A stretch of DNA of 64,000 bases from Bacillota bacterium. Lineage in GTDB: Bacteria; Bacillota; SHA-98; Ch115; JABLXJ01. Below, in pieces: positions 1 to 44,179 of the stretch. Location: NCBI GenBank assembly GCA_012839815.1, contig DUMQ01000130.1, positions 1 through 64,000 on the forward strand. Reading direction: 5' to 3'. The stretch's first letter is position 1. The number at the start of each line of letters is the position of its first letter. The position numbers were made by a program, and so were the translations under genes. The notes under the pieces were generated by a model, which had not been told where the DNA came from, made no database searches, and was given only the letters and a program-made list of their open reading frames with translations.

Positions 1-216
1 CGTGACGGGGCCTTTTGAAATTTGGCAAGGCCCTCGCGCCAAGTTTCAACGGAGGCGCGCCGCAAGCGCGCCGTCCCCGGAACGCAAGCACCGGCATCCC
101 CTGGCAAAACGGCGATAATCTTCGAACTTACACTTAGCCGCGTCCGCTGGGCGGAGAAATGCGCGACACCCTATGCGAGTGCCAAAAAGGACAGAGATTT
201 TTGCGCACCAACTTAG
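1..216. repeat. Dispersed modular inverted-repeat element, copy A (truncated by window start; central segment plus right arm)
   Basis: Shares long stretches with 43740-44126 (gcaccggca...aatcttcgaac.tacacttag...agagatttttgcgcac.aact). The central segment (1-87) is in opposite orientation relative to the right arm. Confidence 0.85.
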
Positions 217-231
217 AATAAAACCTCAGGC

Positions 232-600
232 CAAAAACAAAAACCTTCTCGCCTCAAGGACGAGAAGGTAATCTCGCGGTACCACCCTGATTGGCTCGCA
301 GGCTGTGGAATGTGATAGGTCGAGCAACCTGCGTGCCCACTCATTCTCTCAAGGTACGGGGCAGACTCCCGGATTCCTATCTACCCGATACCCGCTCCTA
401 TATAACGGTTGGAGATCCGTCCCGGCCTACTTGCCCAACGCGGGCACCCACACCAACCAGGCGTTCAGCCGGAAGCTCGAGGGCGAACTTCGATCGCGCT
501 CCCGTCATCGTGCTCGCACCTTGCCACGACTCTCTTTGGCGGGCCCTGCGACCTACTCTTCCCCGTCATCGCATTTCCCGTATTCACACTGCCGATTTTG
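232..600 (-). promoter_or_regulatory. T-box leader with terminator, for a gene left of the window on the minus strand
   Basis: Reverse complement contains AGGGTGGTACCGCG (275-288), followed by hairpin ACCTTCTCGTCCTTGAGGCGAGAAGGT and a T-rich run. Upstream GATGACGGGGAAGAGTA resembles a T-box 5' region. The 5' boundary is approximate. Confidence 0.85.
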
Positions 601-841: not shown

Positions 842-2107
842 GTGCTGACCAGGAGGGAATTCATTAAACTCTGTTTCGCCGGTATAGCTGCCTTGAGTCT
901 CTCAGACCTGATCATACCTGAGCTGGCTCGGGCGTTCCAGGCCATAGGGGGGAAGCCCACGGTGATATGGCTCGAGGTCATGACCTGCGCTGGGGACTTC
1001 ATGTCGTTCCTGAATGCGCTGCATCCTGACCTCCGGGAGCTCCTCTTTGCCACCATTGACTTGCGCTACAGCAACACGCTGATGGCAGGGGAAGGACGCG
1101 TGGCCATATCGGAACTTGAGGACCTCGCCGCCAGGGGAAAGGGCGATTACATCCTGATAGTTGAGGGTACTGTGCCGACCAGGGATGGCGGGGTATATGG
1201 CCTGATCGGGCACCACCCTGATGGCCGGCCCTTCACCGACCTGGAGGCCGTCCGCATGCTTGGCGGAGGCGCAAGATATCTGATCTCGGCCGGGACGTGC
1301 GCGTCGTTCGGCGGCCCCTATGCTGCAAACCCGAATCCATCGGGGTCGCGGTCCGTGAGCGCGGTCCTCGGTAGGCAGCTGGTGAGGGAGCGCCTGGTCA
1401 ACGTGCCGGGTTGCCCGGTCCACCCCGACTGGCTTGTCGGGACCCTGGCTCACTTGTTACTCTATGGCATGCCGGAGCTGGACGCGTATCGCAGGCCGGG
1501 CCTGTTTTATGGCTCCCTGATCCACGACCGTTGCCCCCGCAGACAGCACTTCGATGATGGGGAGTTTGCCACCCGGCCCGGCGAAGAGAAATGCGTCTAC
1601 AGGATAGGATGCAAAGGTCCCGTTACCTTTGCCGACTGCCCCACGAGGAAGTGGAACAGCGGCCATACGAACTGGCCGGTGGGGGCAAATACGCCGTGTA
1701 TAGGCTGCGTGAGCCCGGGCTTCCCCGACAGGACGTCGCCGTTCTTTGCTCACCTGCCAGATATCCATATCCCAGGCGTTAAAAGAACAGCCAATACGGT
1801 CGGCGCCGCGGCTGGGATCGCGGCTGCTGCAGGTATAGGCGCCCATGCCGTCACGAGCGCCCTTGTGGGAAGGCTTTCGAGGAACATGGTCGAGGGGACG
1901 GAGGGGAAGCCGGCCGATGCTGGTAACGGGGAGGGCGGTGCCCCTGCCGTCGCCGGGCGTCCTGGGGCTGGTGGGAGCGTTGATTCCATTGGGTACAGGC
2001 GGAGACCTCGTGGCATTCTTGGAAGGCTGCTCGCGCGAGTGCGGGCTATGCGGGTTATAGGGAGGCCCGGGCGACAGGGTGGGCGACGCGGCCGGAAGGA
2101 GAGCTAA
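842..2107 (+). CDS. [NiFe] hydrogenase small subunit, Tat-exported, with hydrophobic and low-complexity C-terminal extension
   Basis: N-terminal TRREFIK Tat motif; Fe-S Cys motifs (GTCASFGG, PGCPVHP, CIGCVSPGFPD); precedes the large subunit. Confidence 0.9.
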   Translation: MLTRREFIKLCFAGIAALSLSDLIIPELARAFQAIGGKPTVIWLEVMTCAGDFMSFLNALHPDLRELLFATIDLRYSNTLMAGEGRVAISELEDLAARGKGDYILIVEGTVPTRDGGVYGLIGHHPDGRPFTDLEAVRMLGGGARYLISAGTCASFGGPYAANPNPSGSRSVSAVLGRQLVRERLVNVPGCPVHPDWLVGTLAHLLLYGMPELDAYRRPGLFYGSLIHDRCPRRQHFDDGEFATRPGEEKCVYRIGCKGPVTFADCPTRKWNSGHTNWPVGANTPCIGCVSPGFPDRTSPFFAHLPDIHIPGVKRTANTVGAAAGIAAAAGIGAHAVTSALVGRLSRNMVEGTEGKPADAGNGEGGAPAVAGRPGAGGSVDSIGYRRRPRGILGRLLARVRAMRVIGRPGRQGGRRGRKES

Positions 2108-2134
2108 GAAGGAACCTGGAAAGGAACTCATGGT

Positions 2135-3544
2135 ATGAGCGAGCGAGTGATGATAAGCCCTGTAACGAGGCTTAATGGCTTTTGGAGAGTCGATGTTCTA
2201 ATAGAAGATGGGATCGTGAAGGACGCATGGAGCAGCGGGATCTTCTTCAGGGGTTTTGAGCTCATCCTGGAGGGACGTGAACCAAGAGATGCCATATACC
2301 TCACCGAACGCATCTGCGGAATCTGCTCGTCGGCCCACGGCATGGCCTCATCGCGCGCCCTTGAGAACGCGTGTGGGGTGGAGGCGCCGCGAAACGGGGT
2401 GCTCATGCGCAACCTCATCTTCGCCGTTGACATGCTCCAGAACCATATCAGGCACTTTTACCTGCTGGCTGTCCCCGATTTCGTGGAGGGGCCCGATATG
2501 CCGCCTTTTCTGCCGAGGTATAACGTTGATTTCAGGCTTTCAAAGAGCGCAACCGAGCGCATCATGGCCAACTACCTGGAAAGCCTGAAGCTGACCCGGG
2601 AGTTCATGGAGATCCAGGCCAACCTGGGTGGCAAGTCGCCTCACACTCATGGAATCCTGGCGGGGGGTGCACCGGTCGCGCCTGACGCGGACAAGATCAG
2701 GTACAGCCTCTCGGTGGTGGATAGGGCCAGGAAGTTCATCACAGAGAAATATATCCCGGATGTATATACCCTGGGCGAGGCCTACCCGGATTATTACGAG
2801 ATCGGAAAGGGCCATGGGAATTTTCTAATCTATGATTTATTCCCCCAGACGCAGCCAGACGGGGGCCCGGTCCACAAGGGCGGGGTCATGATCGACGGCA
2901 GGCTGGAGAGTCTCGATATCGGCGCTATAACCGAACATGTGAGATTCTCGTGGTTTTCACCGGAGGACGGGCCTCGCAAGCCGGAGGCGGGGTCAACCCA
3001 CCCCGATACCAGGAAGGTCGATGCCTACTCCTGGGTGAAAGCCCCGCGCTACAGGGGAAAGGCCGTTGAGACGGGCCCCCTGGCGGTCCAGTGGATCGCC
3101 AGGGGTTATAGGCGGGGGATATCGGTTATGGACAGGCACGTGGCCAGGGCTTTAATGACAAAGGAGACCGCCGAGCTGATACGCGAGTGGCTGCTCTCGC
3201 TCGAGCCCGGTAAGCCGGTTTTCGAGCCGTATGAGATACCGGCTGAGGCCGAGGGGGTAGGCGCGGTCGAGGCATTCAGGGGCGGGCTCGGACACTGGGT
3301 GAAAATCGAGGGGCGGCGGATAGCCAGGTACCAGATCGTCACGCCTTCCGCCTGGAATTGCTCCCCGCGGGATGATTCGGGGCAGCGAGGGGCTGTTGAA
3401 GAGGCACTGGTCGGTACGCCTGTGAAAGACCCAAGGGCCCCTATCGAGGTTGGGCGGGTCATCAGGTCGTTCGATCCGTGCCTGGCGTGCGCTGCTCACG
3501 TGATTCGCTCCGATGGCTCACGCGAGGATATCAGGATCAGCTAA
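2135..3544 (+). CDS. [NiFe] hydrogenase large subunit
   Basis: N-terminal RICGICSSAH and C-terminal DPCLACAAHVIR motifs. Confidence 0.95.
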   Translation: MSERVMISPVTRLNGFWRVDVLIEDGIVKDAWSSGIFFRGFELILEGREPRDAIYLTERICGICSSAHGMASSRALENACGVEAPRNGVLMRNLIFAVDMLQNHIRHFYLLAVPDFVEGPDMPPFLPRYNVDFRLSKSATERIMANYLESLKLTREFMEIQANLGGKSPHTHGILAGGAPVAPDADKIRYSLSVVDRARKFITEKYIPDVYTLGEAYPDYYEIGKGHGNFLIYDLFPQTQPDGGPVHKGGVMIDGRLESLDIGAITEHVRFSWFSPEDGPRKPEAGSTHPDTRKVDAYSWVKAPRYRGKAVETGPLAVQWIARGYRRGISVMDRHVARALMTKETAELIREWLLSLEPGKPVFEPYEIPAEAEGVGAVEAFRGGLGHWVKIEGRRIARYQIVTPSAWNCSPRDDSGQRGAVEEALVGTPVKDPRAPIEVGRVIRSFDPCLACAAHVIRSDGSREDIRIS

Positions 3545-3615
3545 GTTAGTGCGCAAAAATCTCTGCATTTTGGGGCACTCGCATAGGGTGTCTCGCATCT
3601 CTCCGCCCGGCGGAC
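3541..3615. repeat. Dispersed modular inverted-repeat element, copy E (outer right-arm fragment, reversed)
   Basis: ctaagttagtgcgcaaaaatctctgc...gcactcgcatagggtgtctcgcatctctccgcccggcggac matches the reverse complement of the outer right arms of copies A and D. Confidence 0.85.
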
Positions 3616-3738
3616 GGTTCAGGGGTGCATATAGGTCAGGGGTGGGATAGGCGGGGATGGGTAGTCCAGGATTGAGGAGAGTAAGATAGGGAAGTATAGA
3701 GTAATGTAGAGTAGAGCTGGTCAGGGGGTGCAAACACG

Positions 3739-15810: not shown

Positions 15811-15991
15811 CTCTTATCCAGAGTGGCTGAGGGACTGGCCCAATGACGCCCGGCAACCGGCGGCGGGTATCCGCCTGCGCGGTGCCAATTCCTGCAGGGT
15901 TTGCACGTCGCGCGAGGTTTTGCGCTTGTTATGCTGTAGATCGGTTACAGGCGCACGGGTAAGCGTGAACGTGAGCCCTGAGAGATGAGAG
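15811..15991 (+). promoter_or_regulatory. SAM-I (S-box) riboswitch aptamer
   Basis: ctcttatccagagtggctgagggactggcccaatgacgcccggcaacc...ggtgccaattcctgcagg...gagagatgagag; P1 pairing ctcttatc/gatgagag. Confidence 0.93.
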
Positions 15992-24976: not shown

Positions 24977-25077
24977 TGGCGCGCCGCAAGCGCGCGGTCC
25001 CCGGATGCAACACCGGCAACCTATGGGACGTGCTGGTAAACCGGCATGAATTTAAGGAATTAGCACTTAGTGCGCCA
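24977..25077. repeat. Dispersed modular inverted-repeat element, copy B (half of inner module, reversed)
   Basis: ggcgcgccgcaagcgcgcggtccccggatgcaacaccggcaacctatgggacgtgctggtaaaccggcat...cacttag matches the reverse complement of the left inner arm of copies C and D. Confidence 0.85.
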
Positions 25078-25666: not shown

Positions 25667-25732
25667 CTAAGTCAGTGCGCAAAAACACCCAGACCTTTCG
25701 CAGGTAACAGCTAACAGTGCGGCACATTGGCC
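25667..25732. repeat. Dispersed modular inverted-repeat element, copy F (outer left-arm fragment)
   Basis: ctaagtcagtgcgcaaaaacacccagacctttcgcaggtaacagctaacagtgcggcacattggcc matches 43741-43804. Confidence 0.85.
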
Positions 25733-25901
25733 GGGGTGCATACCCGCGTCACCTGCTCTGTTGAGCCGCACCGCGGCATGAGTGTCTACTCTAAGTTGGA
25801 AATCCTACGAAATCCTTTTTAGAAATCTATTGCAAGTGCGCGCCATCTGTGCTAGTATAATTTGTGAAAAAAGTTACGAAGTCTGGGGGCGTAAGAGAGG
25901 G

Positions 25902-40269: not shown

Positions 40270-40467
40270 CTAAGTGCTGGTTCCTTAATTCATGCCAGTT
40301 TACCGGCACGTCCCAGGACTTACGGTGTTGCGTTCCGGGGACGGCGCGCTTGCGGCGCGCCTCCGTTGAAATTTGGCGCGAGGACCCTGCCAAATTTCAA
40401 GAGGCCCCGTCACGCAATCACCGGCAACCTATGGAAAAGTGGCAATGGCTTTTGAGCTTAAACTTAG
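40270..40467. repeat. Dispersed modular inverted-repeat element, copy C (inner module alone)
   Basis: ctaagtg.tggttccttaatt...ttgcgttccggggacgg...ttgaaatttggc...gccaaatttcaa...cacgcaa.caccggcaacc...cttag matches 43849-44047. Confidence 0.87.
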
Positions 40468-42408: not shown

Positions 42409-43742
42409 CTTTGGAAAGGCTGTTGAATCTTGCATCGAAAGAGGCTGACGCAGCTGAGGTATTCTTCATAAAGAGCGCGGAGACCCCCGTTTCCTTTGAA
42501 GCGAACAGGCTCAAATTCATCGAAACGAGGATGGTTGAGGGCGCCGCGCTCCGGATCATAAGAAACGGGCGCATTGGTTTCTCGACCTCCAGCAAGCTTG
42601 ATGAGCCGGATATCCTGGTCAGGAACGCCGTCGCCTCGAGCGAGTTCGGGGTCGAGGCGGCCTTTGAATTCCCCGCGACGTCAAAGGCAGCGCTTCCCAC
42701 CCCCAGGGTTTACGATGCCGGGATCGCCGACCTTGACCCTGGGTACATGATCAAGCTCGGCTCGGAGATGATCGCCCGGGTGCTGGATGCAGAGCCTGGG
42801 GCCAAGTGCGACGTCACGTTTACCAGGGATGTAGAGGAGATCTCTGTAGGGCATGCGGGGGGTGGACCTCCTGTATCGTACCGGCGGACCTTATTTGAAG
42901 GTGGCATGGAAGTGACTGTGGTCTCCGGCGAGGATATCTTGATGGTCTCGGATTACAATGCATCGAGCGCAATGAATATCGATTTCAGGCGCCTCACCGA
43001 CGGGATCATCCAGCGTTTGATATGGGCGAGGAGGATAGTCCCCGTCACCACCGGCCGGTACCCTGTCATCTTTACATCCAGGGCCATGGTTGTCCTCCTC
43101 CTGGCGTTGAAGGTGGCCCTGAATGGAAAGACGGTACTCCAGGGAGCCTCGCCACTTGCCGGCAAACTGGGCACCAGGGTGATGGATGAGCGTATCTCCC
43201 TTTACGACGACGGGACGGTGAACCACGCTCCGAGAAGTGCCCCCTTTGATGACGAGGGCGTGCCGTGCCGGCGGACGCCGCTCATAGAGGGCGGCGTGGT
43301 CCGCAACTTCTATTATGATCTCCAGACCGCCGGGCGTTCGGGGAAGGAGAGCACTGGCAATGGCTGGCGCGTCTCGCGCACGGGAGAGCGGTCCTTTGAG
43401 GGCCAGCCTACGACGGCGCAGACTAACATCGTGGTGCCGCCGGGGGACATGAGCCTCGAGAGGATGATAGAAAGCATGGATGAAGGCCTCATCGTTGAAC
43501 AGCTTATGGGGGCGGGCCAGGGGAATATCCTGAGCGGCGCCTTCTCGATGAATGTTCACCTCGGCTACAAGGTGGAGGGCGGCAGGATAGTGGGCCGGGT
43601 CAAGAACACCATGGTGGCGGGGAACGCCTTTGAGGCGTTTAACGATGTGGTGGCGCTTGGCGACAAGGCTGAGTGGGTCATGGGCCCTTATTCGGTGCCG
43701 GCTTTCTTGTTCAGGTCGCTGTCGGTGTCGACGAAGAGTTAA
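42405..43742 (+). CDS. pmbA: TldE/PmbA metalloprotease subunit
   Basis: TldD/PmbA family: MVEGAALRIIRNGRIGFSTSSKLDEPDILVRNAV...; 4-bp overlap with tldD. Confidence 0.92.
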   Translation: MTLERLLNLASKEADAAEVFFIKSAETPVSFEANRLKFIETRMVEGAALRIIRNGRIGFSTSSKLDEPDILVRNAVASSEFGVEAAFEFPATSKAALPTPRVYDAGIADLDPGYMIKLGSEMIARVLDAEPGAKCDVTFTRDVEEISVGHAGGGPPVSYRRTLFEGGMEVTVVSGEDILMVSDYNASSAMNIDFRRLTDGIIQRLIWARRIVPVTTGRYPVIFTSRAMVVLLLALKVALNGKTVLQGASPLAGKLGTRVMDERISLYDDGTVNHAPRSAPFDDEGVPCRRTPLIEGGVVRNFYYDLQTAGRSGKESTGNGWRVSRTGERSFEGQPTTAQTNIVVPPGDMSLERMIESMDEGLIVEQLMGAGQGNILSGAFSMNVHLGYKVEGGRIVGRVKNTMVAGNAFEAFNDVVALGDKAEWVMGPYSVPAFLFRSLSVSTKS

Positions 43743-44126
43743 GTTAGTGCGCAAGAATACCCGGACCTTTCGCAGGTAACAGCTACCAGTGCTGCACAGT
43801 GGCCGTGGCGTCTCGCATCTCTCCGCCCGGCGGACGCGGCCTGCTCGACTAAGTGTAGGTTCCTTAATTTGTGCCAGTTTACCAGCACGTCCCAGGGGTT
43901 GCCGGTGTTGCGTTCCGGGGACGGCGCGCTCGCGGCGCGCCTCCGTTGAAATTTGGCGTGAGGGCCTTGCCAAATTTCAAAAGGCCCCGTCACGCAAGCA
44001 CCGGCAACCCCTGGGAAAACGTCAGTAATCTTCGAACCTACACTTAGCCGCGTCGGCCGGGCGGAGAGATGCCAGACGCCCTATGCAAGTGCCCAAAAGG
44101 GCAGAGATTTTTGCGCACTAACTCAG
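43740..44126. repeat. Dispersed modular inverted-repeat element, copy D (complete, about 387 bp, nested)
   Basis: Outer ends agttagtgcgcaagaat/atttttgcgcactaact; ctaagtgtaggttc/gaacctacacttag exact; tcccaggggttgccggtg/caccggcaacccctggga exact; ttgaaatttggc/gccaaatttcaa exact. Confidence 0.93.
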
Positions 44127-44179
44127 CATATACTCTGCTACATGATACGCGCGGGGCGGCGCGACGACCAGCCATCGTG

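Follow-up and report, generated by a model that had tools for sequence, protein, structure and literature searches.

The window, a 64-kb stretch of DNA at the start of contig C119, comes from the draft genome of an uncultured bacterium (G000; 2.8 Mb in 163 contigs). Near its left end, genes for the small and large subunits of a NiFeSe-type hydrogenase (842-3544) lie immediately downstream of a repeat copy, here termed copy A, and a SAM riboswitch is found at 15811-15924 (plus strand). A T-box leader recognised by Rfam (253-578, minus strand) points towards copy A, which separates it from its regulated gene; that gene falls past the contig end. Because base 1 of the window is also base 1 of the contig, copy A is a half copy with one arm visible. 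The following repeat features were annotated in the window:

1-87, minus strand: core of copy A, 87 bp, reversed relative to its own Q arm and starting at the contig end; inverse repeat of 43908-43994 (97%)
88-137, plus strand: Q arm of copy A, attached to the "left" core end (GGAACGCAA-G-CACCGGCATCCCC...CACTTAG)
138-216, plus strand: outer arm of copy A (CCGCGTCC...GCGCACCAACTTAG), a direct repeat with 44048-44130 that marks copy A as composite
3541-3616, minus strand: solitary outer-arm fragment, from repeat comparison within the window
24978-25070, minus strand: copy B, comprising a partial core (24978-25010) and a P arm (25011-25070) with a standard junction
25668-25736, plus strand: solitary outer-arm fragment, 88% identical to 43740-43808
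40270-40467, plus strand: copy C, a simple element in standard orientation, with P arm (40270-40327), core (40328-40414) and Q arm (40415-40467)
43740-43848, plus strand: left outer arm of copy D (TAAGTTAGTGCGCAA...GGCCTGCTCGA)
43849-44047, plus strand: inner element of copy D in standard orientation, with P arm (43849-43907), core (43908-43994) and Q arm (43995-44047) and a nested-hairpin fold
44048-44134, plus strand: right outer arm of copy D (CCGCGTCGG...TTTTTGCGCACTAACT)

The simple unit is a non-coding sequence of ~200 bp with the structure CTAAGTGTAGG-P arm-87-bp core-Q arm-CACTTAG; it ends in CTAAG/CTTAG, and its palindromes are nested concentrically. Many copies, A and D included, are further enclosed by outer arms (TAAGTTAGTGCGCAA... 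/ ...TTGCGCACTAACT), and in three sequences (L265, L266 and L267) an additional inverted repeat, ATCTCCGGCC...GGCCGGAGAT, within the outer arm forms another level of nesting. Copy D folds into concentric stems on either strand, with two hairpins inside the core (RNA z = -10.9), and no Rfam family scored above its gathering threshold for the element. At least 108 core copies are present in G000: a 26-nt core end matched 108 genomic sites at up to three mismatches and a reversed control pattern matched none, which excludes chance for the core repeat. This pattern was ungapped and missed copies that lack a certain extra A (see below), and the 108-copy set is core-selected. Mean core divergence is ~2% in this pattern-selected set, compared with 16-20% for the arms, a comparison affected by the way copies were selected; cores in copies picked by their arms are mostly 92-99% identical to the reference core. 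Relatives of the core, with ~75-86% identity, are present elsewhere in the same class, and several of the genomes concerned carry them at high copy number; the named records found with the core are metagenome-assembled Bacillota. A species-specific extra A in every G000 core was ruled out, as three copies (L257, L258 and L262) do not have it.

Several structural variants were also noted. In the sister species G001, three copies (L142, L144 and L145) have mini-cores, in which the core is cut down to its first 22 nt between full arms; these occur with either arm on the left and look, from their sequences, like internal deletions at GCGC microhomology. One exact pattern for a core-less P-Q junction had no match in G000, and, together with the resemblance of the G001 mini-cores to internal deletions, this led us to reject the core as a separately inserted unit. 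A large share of G000 contig ends, that of copy A among them, fall inside the core or the arms.

Orientation of the core in the window and in related genomes

The first-pass annotation had described the core of copy A as reversed relative to its arm, and the alignments bear this out. Read in reverse complement, positions 1-87 match the cores at 43908-43994 (97%) and 40328-40414 (95%), and positions 75-220 repeat 43985-44130 in direct orientation (86%); thus, the same Q arm adjoins one core end in copy A, which is one-armed at the contig end, and the other core end in copy D. Copy B was likewise correctly grouped with C and D, since its junction is standard, though it retains only a partial core and a P arm. 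Among the junctions scored in G000, the right core end adjoins Q in 46 cases and P in 36, and the left core end adjoins P in 31 and Q in 21. In the roughly 45 two-armed copies of this genome, the arrangement is P-core-Q in 25-28 and Q-core-P in 13, with two P-core-P and a single Q-core-Q (L262). P and Q thus nearly always remain partners, which indicates that the core was turned within the element; random re-pairing of the arms is ruled out by the rarity of the P-core-P and Q-core-Q forms.

Both orientations are also found within 84-354 kb contigs of G001 (L125, L127, L134 and L139) and in G006, G008 and G009; f3, a different family within the class, likewise has both. The annotation had proposed comparing copies across the genome and its relatives, with one fixed orientation elsewhere as grounds for abandoning its reading; both orientations proved common, and this objection fails. 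Orientation is nevertheless not random by necessity, as R/S, a third arm pair in f3, keeps to one arrangement, with 22 R-core-S and 0 S-core-R copies despite ~12 bp of shared arms. At orthologous insertions, namely three shared-flank loci and the L258/L123 pair described below, opposite core orientations were found in none. At a site 5' of nfo, the whole element is inverted between G000 and G001, with the P-core-Q linkage retained. An endonuclease IV-like gene is bordered on both sides by repeat copies in G000 (L097) and G001 (L118), and its 3' copy is composite in one species and simple in the other.

Exchange points and co-variation of the arms

The inverted arms shared around the core measure 16-23 bp. 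It had been proposed that the invertible segment is bounded by TTGCGT/ACGCAA; a sequence marker places the exchange elsewhere. A G just outside ACGCAA is present at the right core end in 81 of 83 scored arms, P or Q alike, and at the left core end in about half; its absence is almost confined to the left. The marker therefore moves with the core, and the exchange must lie further out, within the shared 16 bp CACCGGCAACCCCTGG. In L261, both core ends are swapped relative to the inner hairpins, and in L264 and L267 left-type ends lie on the wrong side of these hairpins; the latter two are contig ends and may be halves of a single copy. As judged from their sequences, these three (L261, L264 and L267) suggest that exchange also took place at the inner stem, CGGGG/CCCCG, of ~5 bp.

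The arms also change together. Left and right arms carry the same variant in 21 of 41 copies, compared with 7.4 expected and a maximum of 16 among shuffles, and one arm variant, GTAAGTCC, is common to many copies. Such change is also seen at an orthologous insertion in the two sister species (L258 in G000 and L123 in G001), which is 96% identical over 503 bp with nearly identical flanks: most of the differences fall in two short arms that differ as a matched block, and the core has only two substitutions. Covariation across 118 cores is strong, and departures of the G-U type (54) are about as frequent as those of the A-C type (49). This near equality disfavours an RNA-level cause and suggests that pairing is maintained at the DNA level rather than by RNA selection.

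Mechanisms of inversion

Both orientations, the exchange interval, the co-varying arms, the nested breakpoints and partial inheritance of orientation are read directly from the copies. As the agent behind arm homogenisation and core reversal we infer template switching between the inverted arms, to which we assign a probability of roughly 0.55. DNA synthesis would be disturbed, for example where a fork stalls at a hairpin or cruciform; the growing strand would then pair with the opposite inverted arm, copy across it and go back. A switch limited to one arm would leave both arms identical, and one that crosses the spacer would leave the core reversed. Over many events the outer CACCGGCAACCCCTGG stem would be used, and occasionally the inner CGGGG/CCCCG stem, with donor and recipient in the same element or in different copies. 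Template switching between short inverted repeats with arms of >9 bp is reported to yield both arm homogenisation and spacer inversion, the latter reversible (PMC8604942). The two parts of this signature are found here: Q-core-P copies have an inverted spacer with their partner arms intact, and homogenisation appears in the excess of identical arms and in the coordinated change at L258/L123. Several points count against template switching. Each spacer inversion described in PMC8604942 is a single event involving a few bases, whereas the spacer here is ~87-90 bp; the R/S relatives keep one orientation (22:0); the arm trees are poorly resolved; and L264 and L267 lie at contig ends. A stem of ~5 bp is too short for efficient homologous recombination. 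Compared with RecA-dependent recombination and with a site-specific invertase, template switching is favoured by the nested breakpoints, this stem included.

Among the alternatives, RecA-type ectopic gene conversion fares best, and we regard it as possible though distinctly less probable. Here, the core and its arms would be pasted between copies, either way round because the arms are mutually inverted. This is consistent with cores far more alike than arms (~2% divergence in the core-selected set against 16-20%, and 92-99% identity in arm-picked copies) and with the spread of GTAAGTCC through many copies. Furthermore, standard and reversed copies draw on one core pool: the forms are undifferentiated, with a divergence of 0.021 between and 0.023 and 0.018 within them (permutation 775/1000). 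However, crossover products are rare (P-core-P 2, Q-core-Q 1), the inner stem is too short, and at L258/L123 the arms changed and the core did not. Since cores are more alike than arms, a contrast affected by copy selection, such conversion may well contribute alongside template switching.

It is unlikely that the two forms are old, fixed subfamilies (P-core-Q and Q-core-P), each amplified by transposition without recurrent inversion, even though orientation does follow ancestry to some degree. Where an arm borders unique flanking sequence, the orientation is almost always standard (standard to reversed, P 13:2 and Q 19:2); the reversed form predominates among P arms that carry the main outer arm (6:25), and composite copies show a mixture. 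The P-arm tree requires 12 orientation changes, compared with 21.7 after shuffling, and nearest neighbours among Q arms with the outer arm agree in 36 of 48 cases (P = 0.001). Against fixed subfamilies, the label hardly clusters on the tree of those same Q arms (13 versus 15; like the P-arm tree, it is poorly resolved), the closest of the listed pairs of P arms with the outer arm (95.7% over 163 bp) combines opposite orientations, cores of the two forms are undifferentiated, and both forms are present in several genera. Equally doubtful is the notion that the core is a selfish module that spreads among existing P/Q shells by conversion, entering in either orientation; old shells would then carry a young, homogeneous and orientation-blind core throughout the class.

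Orientation is partly inherited, and no sign of fast phase switching was found. We read inversion as recurrent, at a tempo comparable to that of arm divergence, rather than as rapid or programmed switching.

A site-specific invertase acting on the arms, as in an inverton-like switch, is very improbable. Invertons resemble the element in having a segment between inverted repeats that is found in both orientations, the 16-23 bp inverted arms around the 87-bp spacer are of a length found in inverton repeats (10-40 nt; PMC11892184), and the genome encodes one serine recombinase domain. On the other hand, there are more than 100 scattered sites, exchange takes place at two different stems (the outer arm and the inner stem) rather than at a fixed crossover site, the arms co-vary in sequence, the core is filled by hairpins, and no recombinase gene was identified adjoining the copies. 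In contrast to that of invertons, the variation of the element is read as evolutionary rather than population-level. The earlier proposal of an invertible core is upheld for inversion relative to the arms (13 complete Q-core-P copies in G000 and more elsewhere) and disfavoured for a programmed site-specific switch. Likewise, of the two routes it offered for the flip, the one through the arms, by recombination or template exchange, is the best fit, and the site-specific route is disfavoured by the inner-stem exchange and the partly inherited orientation. An assembly artefact, in which a collapsed core was threaded backwards, is rejected as the least credible reading: many G000 contigs do end in the core, copy A included, but each junction is short, with ~23 bp of shared arm followed by unique arm, and recurs at many contig ends, and both forms occur inside the long G001 contigs and in independent assemblies.

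Relation to known repeats and significance

By its termini, size, copy number and insertion polymorphism, the element is best described as MITE-like. Simple copies have terminal inverted repeats (CTAAGTGTAGGTTC / GAACCTACACTTAG), the ~200-bp unit is short, non-coding and dispersed (108 core matches in 2.8 Mb), and the sites orthologous to two G001 insertions (L127 and L128) are element-free in G000. With respect to target-site duplication, nothing beyond CTAAG/CTTAG was found in 89 copies, with flank matches at chance level; a TA duplication at CTAG is compatible with the data, one orthologous empty site having ambiguous bases. A search for a parent transposase with matching ends found no IS630 DDE_3 domain in the genome, and six inspected IS4-type DDE genes did not have such ends. 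The element had no match in collections of plasmids, phages and viral contigs.

RUP, Correia and ERIC sequences represent the bacterial class of MITEs and stem-loop intergenic repeats. The element resembles this class in being short, non-coding, intergenic and high in copy number, with terminal inverted repeats and a hairpin fold, and in occupying different sites in sister species; it differs in its variable core orientation, nested composites and class-wide conserved core, no parent transposase with the same ends having been found. REP/BIME sequences with their RAYT transposases are likewise dispersed, high-copy extragenic palindromes, but the element is much longer, and identity with this system was rejected as the genome has no match to Y1_Tnp (PF01797). 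Closer parallels exist for the inversion itself. Hairpin-associated small inversions of chloroplasts typically measure 4-50 bp (Kelchner & Wendel 1996; Catalano 2009, as cited in PMC12371153). In these, as portrayed in that citing text, and in template-switch inversions (PMC8604942), the spacer reverses recurrently without a dedicated enzyme and the arms homogenise. In contrast to both, the element is dispersed and of a mobile type; it has more than 100 copies, nested stems and a structured spacer of 87 bp. Foldback transposons, for example Galileo of Drosophila, share long, dynamic inverted repeats and many non-autonomous copies (PMC4168063); Galileo is a eukaryotic P-superfamily element, and no homology is claimed.

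The repeat is a main cause of assembly fragmentation in G000 and explains the frequent breaks in this draft genome of an uncultured bacterium. With tens of resolved copies, it also forms a natural collection for counting spacer inversions, homogenised arms and nested breakpoints on bacterial chromosomes. Finally, it serves as a warning that hairpin covariation borne by a repeat can come from copying at the DNA level and need not mean RNA selection.
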